Origin: a virus
IMG/VR virus record: IMGVR_UViG_3300025840_000348
Span: 1-20,250 of that record
Length of the DNA stretch: 20,250 nt
Reading direction: 5' to 3' (one strand)
The notes beneath the pieces are model-generated. The model worked only from the letters and a program-made list of their open reading frames with translations. It was not told where the DNA came from and made no database searches. Position numbers and translations under genes: made by a program. Below are positions 5,831 through 10,422 of the stretch, piece after piece (the stretch's first letter is position 1; the number at the start of each line of letters is the position of its first letter).

Positions 5831-6465
5831 TAAGTGATAACCTCTACTAATTCTACATCACTGTCTAACACAAATCTATCATGGGGTATGATTGTGTAAG
5901 TGGGTTTATTGGTCATTTTAACATACCATGACACATTAGATCCTAACAACACATTTTTACCTGCAGGTGTATATCCTGATTGATCAATAAAGTTTCTGTG
6001 TATTGGCACAGTGATTGAAGTTGCATTCCAAGTAACGTCTGCTGTTACTTGATAAGGATATCTATAACCTGTTGCTGGTTGTATGAAGTCACCTTTTTTG
6101 AGTGCTACACCTGATCCAGTTGCACTGATTGTGTTTAACACTATGTTGCCGTTGCTGGCACTTGTGATAGTTGGTGAACCACCTAGTGTGCCTTGCAATG
6201 CTGTGATATAACTTAATCCTGTGTTTGTTGATCCAATATCTACATTTTCTTCTGTGGTGATATCTAAACTGTCTAATTCTTCTAACACTGCTCTGTTATC
6301 ACTGTAACTGTATCCTGCATTTACACCCACAATGAATCTATATGGTCTATTACTGGTAACTTCTGCAGTCAACAATTTACCACTTCTTGAAATTGTTTGG
6401 CTTGCAAGTTTTTTCTTATCTACTGTGATAAAACTTGCTCTATCTATGATTGTTTGTATTCCCAT
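5830..6465 (-). CDS. Probable distal tail protein
   Basis: A 211-residue protein directly downstream of the tape measure gene, the position of distal tail (Dit-like) proteins in siphophage and GTA operons. It is predicted mostly beta: repeated Thr/Ser/Val strands, a central YRYPYQVTADVTWNATSITV segment and a C-terminal DRFVLDSDVELVEV. I recognise no catalytic motif. The start overlaps the tape-measure stop by one base (TAATG) and has GGAGG upstream, inside the tape-measure coding end. The role as an adaptor ring between tail tube and tip is inferred from position and size. Sequence similarity alone did not identify it. Confidence 0.5.
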   Translation of the reverse strand: MGIQTIIDRASFITVDKKKLASQTISRSGKLLTAEVTSNRPYRFIVGVNAGYSYSDNRAVLEELDSLDITTEENVDIGSTNTGLSYITALQGTLGGSPTITSASNGNIVLNTISATGSGVALKKGDFIQPATGYRYPYQVTADVTWNATSITVPIHRNFIDQSGYTPAGKNVLLGSNVSWYVKMTNKPTYTIIPHDRFVLDSDVELVEVIT

Positions 6466-8435
6466 TATGCTGGCATCCTCCTTTGTCCTACTCTAGTAAC
6501 ATTGTATATAAATTCTGGATCTTGTGCTACTAATTGTTTGAAACTGTAAGCGTCTACAGCATTGATGTTGTATGTAACTGCTTGTCCACCTCCACCGCCT
6601 AACATTGATAGACTGTCTTCATGTGAACTAACTGTTGCTGGCCCCCGTACTAATTCTGGGCCGCCTTCCCCGGTTATGGCAAATCTTCCACTTGGAATAT
6701 ATCCACCTGTTGCTTTACCTCCAGAAAATAAACTGCCAAACAATCCACCGCCAGCGCCACCGCCTCCAAACATGCTGAAGAATCCACTAACAACTCTCAT
6801 TGTTTGGAATTTGATAATTTCTGCTAACAGTGATTTAAATAAATCTTTGAAACTGAGTTTGCCTGTTTCCACAAAGCTCATTATGGCATCTGTGATACCA
6901 TCAGTGAATGTGTTGAATATGTTTTCTCCATATGCCGCGGCGTCTTGTGCATTGGTTTGGAATTCCTCAAATGCTCTAGCCCAGCCAGCACTGAATGTGT
7001 TAGAACCTTCTGTGCCATCACCATCACCATCTTTTTTAGGATCTAATTTATTTAACTGTGTTCCATATTCTGCTAAAAACTTTTCTACTGCGGCTCTAGC
7101 ATTGTCTAATGCGTTGCCTACTGCACCCGTCATTCCTTGTTCTGTGAATGTGCTGGTTAGTCCTATAGCATCAAAAAGTTTATCACTTAGTTCACCTAGT
7201 TTTTCTTTGGCCTCATCTATGTCAATTCTACCAAATGTGACTTTTTCTGCTAAATCAATATCATCTAGACCTGGTATTTTGTTGTATGCTTCTATCAGTG
7301 TGTTGATAGCATCAACACCTTTGTTTACCATCCATTCAAAAGCACCAATAATTTTATTGATTAAACCTAACACAATGTCAACACTTTGTGTAATGGCTAA
7401 AATAATCAATTTGCCTTTAGTGCCTAAGAATAAAAATCCTATGATACCTATTGCTTTTAATTCTGCTGGTAAACCATCTAAAAATCCTATGAGGTTCTTA
7501 AGACCCGTTAAGGCAATGCTGAATACAGGAGCAAGAGCATCATAAATTGCGGCTCCTGCCAATAATGCATTACTGATAACTTTGAATATGCTGTCAGCAA
7601 GTCCATCAAAGAAATCATTTAAACTGTCATCTGAAACTAATTTGGTAATTTCTTCTACAAATGACCCAAAGCCAATTGCCAGTACTTTGAAAAATCTACC
7701 AAAACCTGCTTGGAATAATGAGTCTCTGAGGTCATCAGTGGCATCACCTAAGTTGTTTAGTATTTGGTTGAGGTTTTGTGCTCTTGCTAAACTGGCACCA
7801 CCAAATTGTTCTTCTAAACCCTCAGTTAGTGCGGCAATAATCTGTCTAGCACCTTCTGCTGTTTTACCTACTTCTGATATTTCTAATCTGGTTAAACCTA
7901 ATTTTTCTTCTAGGATAGCAAATACAGGAATACCTCTGTCTGCTAGTCTGTTTAATTCTTCTAAGCCTAAACCACCTGCTGTTGTTCTAGCAACCAAATC
8001 AATCATTGACTGGAAAGCACCCAGTTCATCTGTGGTCACAGATGCCGCATCAGCAAATGTTCTTAATAATTTTTCTGTGGGTTCTACACCAGCGGCTTTT
8101 AACTGTACAAAGTTTTTGGTAAGTTGTTGCACACTGAATTGTGTTGTTTTGGCAAACTTTTTGACTCTGTCAAATGCGGCTGAGCCTTCTTCTATACTGC
8201 CAAATACTGCATTCAGTGAACTACGCAAGTCTTCAAAACTTGCACCTGTTTGAGCAATACTTTGCAAGCCTCTGACAGCACCTACAATACCACCTGCGGC
8301 GGCAGCCAGTTTTAAGAAACTGCCTGATACTGAATCTGCACCTTTGCCTAGACCTGCTAAACCTGTTTTTAATTCTTTGAGACCTCTGTTAGCACTACTG
8401 CTGTTAAGATCTACACTGATATTGACATCTGCCAT
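6465..8435 (-). CDS. Tail tape measure protein
   Basis: A 656-residue tape measure protein, which sets tail length and is ejected with the DNA. Residues 1-230 match the tape-measure N-terminal domain: SVDLNSSSANRGLKELKTGL, GASFEDLRSSLNAVFGS, KFAKTTQFSVQQLTKNFVQLK and RTTAGGLGLEELNRLADRGI. Residues about 290-365 hold hydrophobic segments that could span or perturb the host membrane. Residues about 545-590 are Gly-rich and end in the hallmark GGYIPSGRFAITGEGGPELV, a variant of the aGG-GE-GPEL motif near the C-terminus of many lambda-type tape measures. With the rough rule of 1.5 angstrom per residue the tail would be near 100 nm, a short to medium siphovirus tail (inference). It follows the G/GT chaperone genes, the usual order. 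Confidence 0.93.
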   Translation of the reverse strand: MADVNISVDLNSSSANRGLKELKTGLAGLGKGADSVSGSFLKLAAAAGGIVGAVRGLQSIAQTGASFEDLRSSLNAVFGSIEEGSAAFDRVKKFAKTTQFSVQQLTKNFVQLKAAGVEPTEKLLRTFADAASVTTDELGAFQSMIDLVARTTAGGLGLEELNRLADRGIPVFAILEEKLGLTRLEISEVGKTAEGARQIIAALTEGLEEQFGGASLARAQNLNQILNNLGDATDDLRDSLFQAGFGRFFKVLAIGFGSFVEEITKLVSDDSLNDFFDGLADSIFKVISNALLAGAAIYDALAPVFSIALTGLKNLIGFLDGLPAELKAIGIIGFLFLGTKGKLIILAITQSVDIVLGLINKIIGAFEWMVNKGVDAINTLIEAYNKIPGLDDIDLAEKVTFGRIDIDEAKEKLGELSDKLFDAIGLTSTFTEQGMTGAVGNALDNARAAVEKFLAEYGTQLNKLDPKKDGDGDGTEGSNTFSAGWARAFEEFQTNAQDAAAYGENIFNTFTDGITDAIMSFVETGKLSFKDLFKSLLAEIIKFQTMRVVSGFFSMFGGGGAGGGLFGSLFSGGKATGGYIPSGRFAITGEGGPELVRGPATVSSHEDSLSMLGGGGGQAVTYNINAVDAYSFKQLVAQDPEFIYNVTRVGQRRMPA

Positions 8436-8440
8436 ACGTT

Positions 8441-8953
8441 TTACCTACCTAATTCTTTTTTTATCCTACTTTTAATTTCTTTAGTGATAAAATCTTTTGT
8501 GGGTTTTGAAAACCCATACTTTCTACCCTCAGGTGATACTTTGTTCTTTTGAAAGTTACTCCTATCAATATAAGAACTGTATTCTGCAGATGAATTCAAT
8601 GTGGTTTTACCAACTAATCTTTGATTATTTCTGGCATAACCACTGCGTTTAGCAGTGTGTCTTTTCATTTCTGGTAATGCATCTTTGAATACTTCTTCAA
8701 TTATACCATCAATTCTTTGAAGTTTTAATAGTGCTCTTCTAGCATCTACCCTCACTGCAGGTTTACCTGTTTTACCTTTGAATAATGTTCTTGCTGAGTT
8801 ACCAAATGTTGCAATCAATCTACCGTATGCTACACCCAATCTGGTAGCACCTGCTCTAGCAACTGTGGCCAACCTGGCAACAGAAACTGTGGTAGCTCTA
8901 GCCAGTGTAACTCCTGTTACTCTAACTATGCCTGCTAAAATTGGTAACGCCAT
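8441..8953 (-). CDS. Basic tail protein of unknown family between chaperone and tape measure
   Basis: A 170-residue, strongly basic protein. Residues 1-58 have a repeating Val/Ala/Arg pattern (VARLATVARAGATRLG) that would make a long amphipathic or weakly hydrophobic helix with regularly spaced arginines. The rest is Lys/Arg-rich. The segment SSAEYSSYIDRS followed by KYGFSKPTKDFITKEIKSRIKKEL resembles the end of HK97 gp10-like tail-completion proteins (an aromatic motif, then a C-terminal helix), but the position after the chaperone genes is unusual for that family. Its ATG follows the stop of the frameshift extension by two bases, with a GAGG site 6 nt upstream. Its own 3' end supplies the AGGTAGG site for the tape measure. 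A virion or assembly role is inferred from context. Confidence 0.55.
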   Translation of the reverse strand: MALPILAGIVRVTGVTLARATTVSVARLATVARAGATRLGVAYGRLIATFGNSARTLFKGKTGKPAVRVDARRALLKLQRIDGIIEEVFKDALPEMKRHTAKRSGYARNNQRLVGKTTLNSSAEYSSYIDRSNFQKNKVSPEGRKYGFSKPTKDFITKEIKSRIKKELGR

Positions 8954-8955
8954 AT

Positions 8956-9506
8956 CTATCCTCTAAAATTCTTAAGAGCCTGTTGCAATTGATCTGTATC
9001 ATATGCTTTGCCTATATCATGCTTGGCTCTAGGGTCCTTTTGTTTTTGTTTGTATTCTCTAACTGTGTGTGCCACATCAAATACCAACATATCAAAAGTG
9101 TCTGCACGTCTTAGGATTTCACTGGGTAAAAGCCCATATGTTTCTCCCATCACATGCAACATACACAACATATTTGTATCTGGGCTTTCTAGAACAATGT
9201 GATGGTTTGTTACTTTCCCAAATGTTGTGAAATCAAATTGATAGCCTCCATGAGGACATCAATTGGCAAGGCTTCTCCATCTTTCATCACTGGATTGCCT
9301 GCTTCATCTAAAATCAATTTTTCTATTACTGACGCAATTTCCATAACATTATCTTTGGTGGCAGTGGCCAACTTGGCAAATACGTCCAGTGGTTGTCTGT
9401 CATAAAAGTGGAATGTTACTGATTCACCGTATTTTTCAACAAGTTCTTGCTTGTCAATGGTGATTTCTATAAGTTTGGGTTTTGCGGCTAATTGTTGTAT
9501 TTTCAT
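8956..9506 (-). CDS. Tail assembly chaperone GT, made by -1 ribosomal frameshift
   Basis: Predicted 183-residue fusion. Ribosomes read the 98-codon G frame from 9506, slip one base back at GGGAAAG (9219-9213, minus strand) just before its TAA stop, and continue V-T-N-H-H-I-V-L-E-S-P-D-T-N into the 71-codon ORF ending at 8956. The extension contains MGETYGLLPSEILRRADTFDMLVFDV, the pattern expected of the T part of siphophage G/GT chaperones (short helical domain with YG-x-x-PSE). The -1 frame is open across the junction and the ORF beyond has no ribosome-binding site of its own. In lambda, gpG and gpGT coat the tape measure and recruit tail tube subunits, with GT made in minor amounts. The genes lie directly upstream of the basic tail protein and tape measure, as expected. 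Confidence 0.8.
9147..9205 (-). promoter_or_regulatory. Predicted frameshift-stimulating stem downstream of the slip site
   Basis: Seven bases after the slip heptamer, CCATCACAT (9205-9197, minus strand) can pair perfectly with ATGTGATGG (9155-9147). The 9-bp stem encloses 41 nt that include a second short pairing (ATACA with TGTAT). A spacer of 5-9 nt is typical of -1 frameshift stimulators. The pairing is seen; its function is inferred. Confidence 0.55.
9210..9506 (-). CDS. Tail assembly chaperone G (unshifted product)
   Basis: A 98-residue protein, the main product of the chaperone gene. It starts MKIQQLAAKPKLIEITIDKQ, has an early beta-strand half (VTFHFYDRQPLDVFAKLA) and a helical C-terminus (VLMEAINLISQHLGK), as in many small siphophage tail assembly chaperones. 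The stop TAA follows GGGAAAG directly. The start at 9506 is preceded by AAGGA about 9 nt upstream, inside the end of the previous small gene. The product should bind the tape measure during tail assembly and not be part of the finished virion (known for lambda gpG, inferred here). Confidence 0.8.
   Translation of the reverse strand: MKIQQLAAKPKLIEITIDKQELVEKYGESVTFHFYDRQPLDVFAKLATATKDNVMEIASVIEKLILDEAGNPVMKDGEALPIDVLMEAINLISQHLGK
9213..9219 (-). promoter_or_regulatory. -1 frameshift slippery heptamer GGGAAAG
   Basis: In the G frame the minus strand reads TTG-GGA-AAG-TAA, so the heptamer is G-GGA-AAG, the same slip sequence as in the lambda G/T gene. It overlaps a second possible heptamer, T-TTG-GGA. 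Slipping gives GGG-AAA-GTA and opens the frame into the downstream ORF. Confidence 0.8.
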
Positions 9507-9508
9507 AT

Positions 9509-9691
9509 CTATAAATCCTTTTTACTATTTTCTAGTTTTAAATGGTGAATTGCTGTTAGTACAAATGCAATTCTACTTTTTGTTTTTTTGATGTCTGCTT
9601 CTGCACAAGAGAGTTCACTCTTGCACTTTGCTACTTCCATCTCCAACGTCTGGAGTATCTCCTCCAACGTCAGTTTGTTCCAAATCTGCAT
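9509..9691 (-). CDS. Small helical protein, out-of-frame overlap with upstream gene
   Basis: A 60-residue protein of unknown function starting MQIWNKLTLEEILQTLEMEV. It is almost entirely helix-forming with a coiled-coil-like Leu/Ile/Ala spacing. The start at 9691 has AAGGA 8 nt upstream. The frame is open 14 codons further (ATG at 9733), but that earlier ATG lacks a comparable site. Its first 77 bases overlap the 3' end of the preceding gene in another frame. Its stop lies just before the G chaperone start, and its last codons form that gene's AAGGA site, which argues that it is translated. A tail-assembly role is suggested only by position. Confidence 0.5.
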   Translation of the reverse strand: MQIWNKLTLEEILQTLEMEVAKCKSELSCAEADIKKTKSRIAFVLTAIHHLKLENSKKDL

Positions 9692-9878
9692 GTGTTTGTT
9701 CCTTATATTTATCTGCCTTTTGTGTTTTATCACCGTAATGATATGCTAAATCACTGGCTTTTACTTTGACTCCACCCACAGTAATTTCCTTGCGGCCTTC
9801 TTCAACACACAATTGTGTGTACAACCGTCTAATTTTGGGTTGGTCAAATAAATTTAAAATTCTTTTATCATATTTCAT
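9615..9878 (-). CDS. Small protein between major tail protein and chaperones
   Basis: An 87-residue protein of unknown function. Residues 1-60 are a compact charged domain (MKYDKRILNLFDQPKIRRLY, ITVGGVKVKASDLAYHYGDK). The last 20 residues are acidic, Gly/Asp/Thr-rich and probably disordered. The start has GAGG 9 nt upstream. A 9-bp hairpin separates it from the major tail protein gene. The disordered end coincides with the part that overlaps the next small gene in another frame, consistent with relaxed constraint there. Confidence 0.6.
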   Translation of the reverse strand: MKYDKRILNLFDQPKIRRLYTQLCVEEGRKEITVGGVKVKASDLAYHYGDKTQKADKYKEQTHADLEQTDVGGDTPDVGDGSSKVQE

Positions 9879-9939: not shown

Positions 9940-10422
9940 TTAAGCAATTGTACCTGATGTGTAATCACCTGAGACCAAAATCTCTAGAGGTGAAACCCAC
10001 ACTGGCGCTGTTGCTGAAACAGTTGGACTAAGACCACTTAAATAACCTTCTCCCTCAATGTACCTGTCTCCACTAGTGGAGCCCTGCCAATACATTCTAA
10101 AATACACTTTGGTTTTTGCATTTGTGATGTCAAAAATACCACTGGTACTTCCTTCACCAGTAAAGAAAGTTGTTGGGTCTAACACCGCATTCAAACTTAA
10201 ACTGTTTGTACTTGGTGTAGTAACAACATTACTACTTAAACTATCAAGTTGCTGCCACTCAAAAGTGCCAGGTTGTGCGTTGACAGTTATGTCCTGTAAG
10301 GCAGGTAAAGTCATTACGTTTGATGTATCAGCCATAGCCGCGTTTGCATTAGCAAAGTCACCGCTGGCGTTGATATCCAACTGTACAAATTCTGCAGTTT
10401 CATTTACTGCTATATAAGCCAT
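9940..10422 (-). CDS. Major tail tube protein
   Basis: A 160-residue protein, probably the tail tube subunit. It is beta-rich with Thr/Ser/Asn-rich loops. TKVYFRMYWQGSTSGDRYIEGEGYLSGLSPT (in parts, residues about 105-135) matches the tail-tube pattern of a strand, a G-x-G-x-x-x-x-L turn and a hydrophobic strand, followed by the WVSPLEILVSGDYTSG-type end. Position after the tail terminator and before the chaperone genes is standard, and 160 residues is usual for a minimal tube protein without an extra Ig domain. The start has AGGAG 6 nt upstream. The hairpin directly downstream would suit a highly expressed gene. Confidence 0.75.
   Translation of the reverse strand: MAYIAVNETAEFVQLDINASGDFANANAAMADTSNVMTLPALQDITVNAQPGTFEWQQLDSLSSNVVTTPSTNSLSLNAVLDPTTFFTGEGSTSGIFDITNAKTKVYFRMYWQGSTSGDRYIEGEGYLSGLSPTVSATAPVWVSPLEILVSGDYTSGTIA

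Follow-up and report, generated by a model that had tools for sequence, protein, structure and literature searches.

Described frameshift cassettes and the present locus

In tail assembly of the lambda type, the binding partner of gpG and gpGT is the tape measure protein, and that of T is the tail tube subunit (PMC5009743). The heptamer G_GGA_AAG is highly shift-prone in Escherichia coli (PMC5009743). The DNA that we analysed, hereafter the window, is a whole virus record of 20,250 bases, and its minus strand carries a cassette that is like lambda G/GT in the heptamer G_GGA_AAG, the −1 direction, the pairing of a small chaperone with a C-terminal extension, and the location upstream of the tape measure gene (PMC5009743). 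However, the window cassette is unlike lambda G/GT in having no detectable sequence kinship with it, a stop codon right after the heptamer, a candidate stem, and an extra gene between T and the tape measure gene, which in relatives is of the tail completion or Neck1 type.

The E. coli dnaX gene provides a second comparison. It also has a heptamer ending in AAG and a stem a few bases downstream (PMC5009743), whereas the window stem has a 41-nt loop and no Shine-Dalgarno-like stimulator lies upstream. Such a stimulator, 2–14 nt upstream of the shift site, was found in one of 63 relatives.

At the level of proteins, the best fold matches of the window G among solved structures are HK97 gp13 (2ob9) and YqbN (3klu), a resemblance at the fold level only (Z 5.2, 14% identity, r.m.s.d. 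5.1 Å). In BFVD, the chaperones A0A6J5LPC3 and A0A6J7WLS6 from uncultured Caudovirales match the fold of G with E-values of 1.4e-8 and 5.4e-9, at 28% identity; they differ from the window product in having been deposited without a T fusion, and relatives of T, for example A0A6J5N5Q7, are named 'uncharacterized'. As judged from sequence, the cassette is a lambda-type G/GT module of a large uncultured lineage, in which it is well conserved and for which we found no annotation; the frameshift trick itself is well known.

The cassette in the window

The G gene (9210..9506, minus strand) encodes, in the zero frame, a putative tail assembly chaperone of 98 aa, with relatives in more than 180 loci, and is preceded by the Shine-Dalgarno sequence AAGGA (9516..9520, minus strand), 9 nt ahead of its ATG. 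Its 3′ end reads TTG GGA AAG TAA, such that the heptamer GGGAAAG (9219–9213) is in the X_XXY_YYZ register and the stop codon TAA (9212–9210) abuts it. The −1 frame runs open from position 9213 through 85 codons to a stop at 8958–8956, and this extension, T (8956..9213, minus strand), would add 85 aa to the 98 aa of G to give a GT fusion of 183 aa. Beyond the shift site (9213..9219, minus strand), after a spacer of 7 nt, the 5′ arm of a candidate stimulator stem, CCATCACAT (9197..9205, minus strand), can pair with the 3′ arm, ATGTGATGG (9147..9155, minus strand), across a loop of 41 nt. The 9 pairs are perfect, and the spacer is within the 5–9 nt expected for a structure-stimulated cassette. 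A previous sequence-only reading of this DNA had described a GGGAAAG directly before the G stop, a 183-residue fusion through an open −1 frame, and a 9-bp stem with this spacer and loop; all of its coordinates hold on the minus strand, the translation gives 98 + 85 aa, and the two arms are exact reverse complements.

The occurrence of the heptamer is by itself unremarkable, with two GGGAAAG in the window versus 1.5 expected. The strong part of the cassette is rather its in-register position together with the open −1 frame, and the stem goes only modestly beyond chance, as judged from the shuffles and the folding energy given below.

An AlphaFold model of G, built with 56 relatives, is confident (pLDDT 89), and the top solved structure found with it is the HK97 chaperone 2ob9 (Foldseek E 0.27; VIA Z 5.2, 89 residues), with 3fgx and then YqbN as the next matches. 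In BFVD, one of the top matches carries the name 'Tail assembly chaperone' (E 1.4e-8). Since these fold scores are modest, the match is supportive, but not proof. Searches against Pfam and PHROG at their cut-offs placed neither G nor T in a named chaperone family: the window G scores 12.9 bits against PF16459 (Phage_TAC_13), under the curated cut-off of 28.8, and the best E-value of this family against the 56 relatives is 0.012. We infer a chaperone function for G, which by its predicted fold is most like the HK97 tail chaperone.

The shift site is retained across relatives

Relatives were searched with the tape measure protein, G and T, which yielded 182 loci having both halves of the cassette, with 103 distinct junctions, from which 63 representatives of at most 85% identity were taken. 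A query with the fusion added 53 loci from a related clade, for a total of 235 relatives. All are uncultured virus contigs, except for one MAG contig. Isolates with G or T relatives were not found by tblastn in 50,697 phage records, and a collection of 84,980 genomes had a G/T relative in one MAG contig only. This contig (L189, CAISLL010000046.1, positions 50–600) was binned with a beta-proteobacterium, which may be a hint of the host or may reflect a mis-binned virus.

In every one of these loci (182 of 182, and all 53 further ones) T is in the −1 frame relative to G, and an in-frame heptamer occupies the homologous position. Related phages with both ORFs and lacking the heptamer, which the sequence-only reading had named as a refutation of the cassette, amount to zero cases in the 182 and 53 loci. 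The commonest form is GGGAAAG, and the variants are GGGAAAA, GGGAAAC, GGGGAAG and GGGGGGC.

The choice of codons at this position is as follows. First, the Leu codon that precedes the Gly ends in G in 63/63 representatives, versus 125/467 (27%) elsewhere in G. Second, the Gly of the shift site is encoded by GGA or GGG in 63/63, versus 33/180 (18%) elsewhere. Third, the Lys is encoded by AAG in 56/60, versus 64/262 (24%) elsewhere. Codon choices that leave the protein unchanged, and are of consequence for slippage alone, are thus fixed, which we take as the decisive computational evidence for the shift site. Moreover, of the 181 locus pairs tallied, 11 keep the heptamer in place although their zero-frame stop is displaced by 1–15 codons downstream, so the heptamer is no mere by-product of the stop context. 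Loci with a displaced stop, and hence a longer G product, are L168, L173, L182, L050, L054, L163 and L117. This combined evidence makes a lambda G/GT-type programmed −1 ribosomal frameshift at the site very probable.

The GGGGAAG form is found in 9/63 representatives, and the tree needs at least five changes between this and the other forms. Its carriers are L037, L041, L045, L050, L054, L056, L058, L091 and L104, together with others. At this variant the Lys tRNA cannot re-pair in the −1 frame (AAG to GAA), and only the P-site Gly tRNA can. Such sequences could use slippage in the P site alone, on the Z_ZZN tetramer G_GGG, which predicts Glu, not Lys, at the junction.

Structure downstream of the shift site

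The stem of the window was compared with several expectations. A stem of at least 9 bp starting 4–10 nt past the site is seen at 0.4% of all window positions; its frequency is 0.3% among dinucleotide shuffles and 2.5% when synonymous codons are shuffled so as to leave the T protein unchanged. The 83 nt as a whole fold with an unexceptional energy (z −0.16). Given these shuffle rates and this folding energy, the window stem alone is suggestive, not compelling. Apart from the window and a contig with the same sequence at this locus (L002/L004), this exact stem is found in L003 alone, the nearest relative, whose G is 79% identical. Both arms are unchanged between the window and L003, as are almost all of the surrounding 120 nt (97–100% identical), so the conservation of the whole block means that the arms offer no independent test. 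Compensatory change is unseen in the window lineage because only one distinct relative has the same stem.

These observations favour a reading in which the frameshift is real and the 9-bp stem is incidental, the heptamer beside the stop codon being enough, as would the fact that about four fifths of the relatives are without an unusually long stem past the site. We regard this reading as quite possible, if not as the probable one. Against it stands the excess of structure right after the site throughout the family: the folding z there is −1.13, versus −0.10 to −0.83 at later T positions (a range that excludes the overlapping windows, with z −1.02 and −0.80) and −0.22 to −0.75 inside G, and the stem is longer than in 95% of codon shuffles in 13 of 62 representatives, versus 3.1 expected. 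Furthermore, L007, the nearest outgroup, is without the window stem and has a different strong hairpin at the same place (z −3.18).

Further evidence against an incidental role comes from the related clade with the GGGAAAA heptamer, in which a 10-pair stem (positions 8–17 with 35–44) has the same 7-nt spacing and shows double synonymous compensatory changes at three pairs (UA/CG, CG/UA and CG/GC/AU). Cells with changes on both sides number 12, versus 3.1 in shuffles, a value reached in 0/500 of them. The UA to CG change at pair 8–44 involves wobble bases in Asn and Ser codons. It is seen three times on the tree, including inside the sister pairs L203/L206 and L207/L214. In a tree test of this clade, the independent compensatory events on well-supported branches were too few for significance. 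RNAalifold predicts the stem unaided in the GGGAAAA subset alone, and no structure in a mixed set of 15 sequences. Likewise, a search for a common stem among 36 relatives with His at T residue 4 gave no consensus helix, and the window pairing scored no better than other pairings.

At least one related clade thus gives good support for a structural stimulator. For the window a stimulator is likely but not proven, and on balance we lean towards the 9-bp stem acting as one. The stimulator proposed by the sequence-only reading finds only partial support, as covariation of a stem with this spacing was seen in a related clade and not in the window lineage itself. It may also be, although we consider this a tentative and rather doubtful extension, that what is kept is the position of the stimulator, which begins about 6–7 nt past the heptamer, and that the 3′ partner and the loop are redrawn between clades (the window and L003, L007, and the GGGAAAA clade), while the heptamer flips between G_GGA_AAG and G_GGG_AAG. 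On this reading, the repeated flips would suggest that the strength of the site is traded against that of the stem, holding the G:GT ratio.

T is probably read as an extension of G

An internal ATG (9169..9171, minus strand) opens a 71-aa ORF within T, and it was from this that a separate gene, with no fusion being made, could be proposed. We consider such a gene very unlikely. In L003 the ATG, which lacks a Shine-Dalgarno sequence, is replaced by GTG, and across the 63 representatives neither a ribosome site nor a start position is conserved for T: a Shine-Dalgarno sequence precedes the G start in 57/63 and T starts, at scattered positions, in 7/63. Conserved residues in the −1 frame start right at the shift site. 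In the first 14 T codons, ahead of the usual start codons, variability peaks at the third codon position of the −1 frame, and a −1 stop in the T stretch preceding any start codon was found in 0/55 sequences. Finally, a separate gene leaves the constraint on the heptamer unexplained. The preferred reading, in which T would be translated only within the 183-aa fusion, thus agrees with two claims of the sequence-only reading, namely, that T lacks a ribosome site of its own and that ORF calling mis-starts it, the ATG being a false start.

This false start may have left its mark on the existing protein families. A family of function unknown, phrog_6541 (69 positions), is weakly matched by 20 of 56 T sequences, and the window T aligns to it only from residue 22 onward, which fits T usually being annotated from the false start. 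The AlphaFold model of T is a helical domain (pLDDT 81), for which a fold search gave no clear match, and a sequence search of T against solved structures gave zero matches.

Slippage could also be placed in transcription instead of translation, and we judge this exceedingly unlikely as the origin of the extra product. Runs at which transcription slips are typically of 8 or more bases. The run present here is only GGG AAA, below this length, and the constraint tracks the codon register and the X_XXY_YYZ form. A sequencing or assembly error within a single long ORF, for which nothing more than the overlap itself would speak, is refuted by the relatives: more than 100 distinct sequences, drawn from many metagenomes, have the identical −1 break at this heptamer.

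Proposed mechanism and its implications

The lambda-like arrangement suggests, by homology, that the same G/GT mechanism operates in this phage, and it is from this arrangement that we infer slippage in the host, as well as its rate. Most ribosomes would stop at the end of G and release the 98-aa tail assembly chaperone. A minority would slip by −1 on G_GGA_AAG, with the Gly and Lys tRNAs re-pairing on GGG and AAA (the behaviour of tRNA(Lys) being assumed), and would read on through T to produce the 183-aa GT protein. The stem, placed 7 nt past the site at the region where mRNA enters the ribosome, probably increases the rate of slippage. Free G, together with the G portion of GT, would then form a coat on the tape measure protein, and the T portion would recruit the major tail subunit.

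This interpretation would correct the annotation of the chaperone gene in hundreds of contigs of uncultured aquatic phages, in which T is either named as an uncharacterized protein or truncated at a false start. In addition, the relatives offer a large natural series of variation at a single frameshift site, in which the heptamer varies and stems come and go, and from which one could measure how much the site and the structure each contribute to a constant protein ratio.

Gene neighbourhood and additional observations

The genes of the minus strand follow the order terminase large subunit, portal, scaffold, major head protein, small genes, probable major tail protein, G, T, a gene of 170 aa, tape measure, and distal tail and tail proteins. 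The tape measure protein (6465..8435, minus strand) was recognized by PHROG tape measure (7.7e-26) and by the Pfam families TMP_3 and Tape_meas_lam_C, and the probable major tail protein (9940..10422, minus strand), which has no family match, by gene order only. G and T are therefore upstream of the tape measure gene, with one gene intervening (8441..8953, minus strand), whose 170-aa product is without a family match in the window. This gene order, together with the fold and the architecture of the products, supports the G/GT identity that had been claimed for the cassette.

The genes that occupy the intervening position in relatives are shorter and match tail-completion or Neck1 families (phrog_5/169, down to 7e-10). 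The location of a tail-completion/Neck1-type gene between chaperone and tape measure (L012, 748–1050; L023, 2070–2378) is unusual.

Upstream of G, an ORF for a coiled-coil-like product of 60 aa (9509–9691, minus strand) overlaps the preceding ORF of 87 aa (9615–9878, minus strand) by 77 nt in another frame, an overlap that recurs in L007, L010, L013, L020 and L023. Neither ORF has a family match. A second frameshift was ruled out at this overlap, because the second ORF starts at an ATG of its own, preceded by AAGG.

Finally, in the Pelagibacter phages HTVC202P (L028, 4681–4860) and HTVC026P (L029, 4675–4854), gp41/gp42 ends with an A_AAA_AAC that is followed, just before the tape measure gene, by a T ORF in the −1 frame that is not annotated. 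A likely G/GT frameshift is thus missing from the records of both phages.
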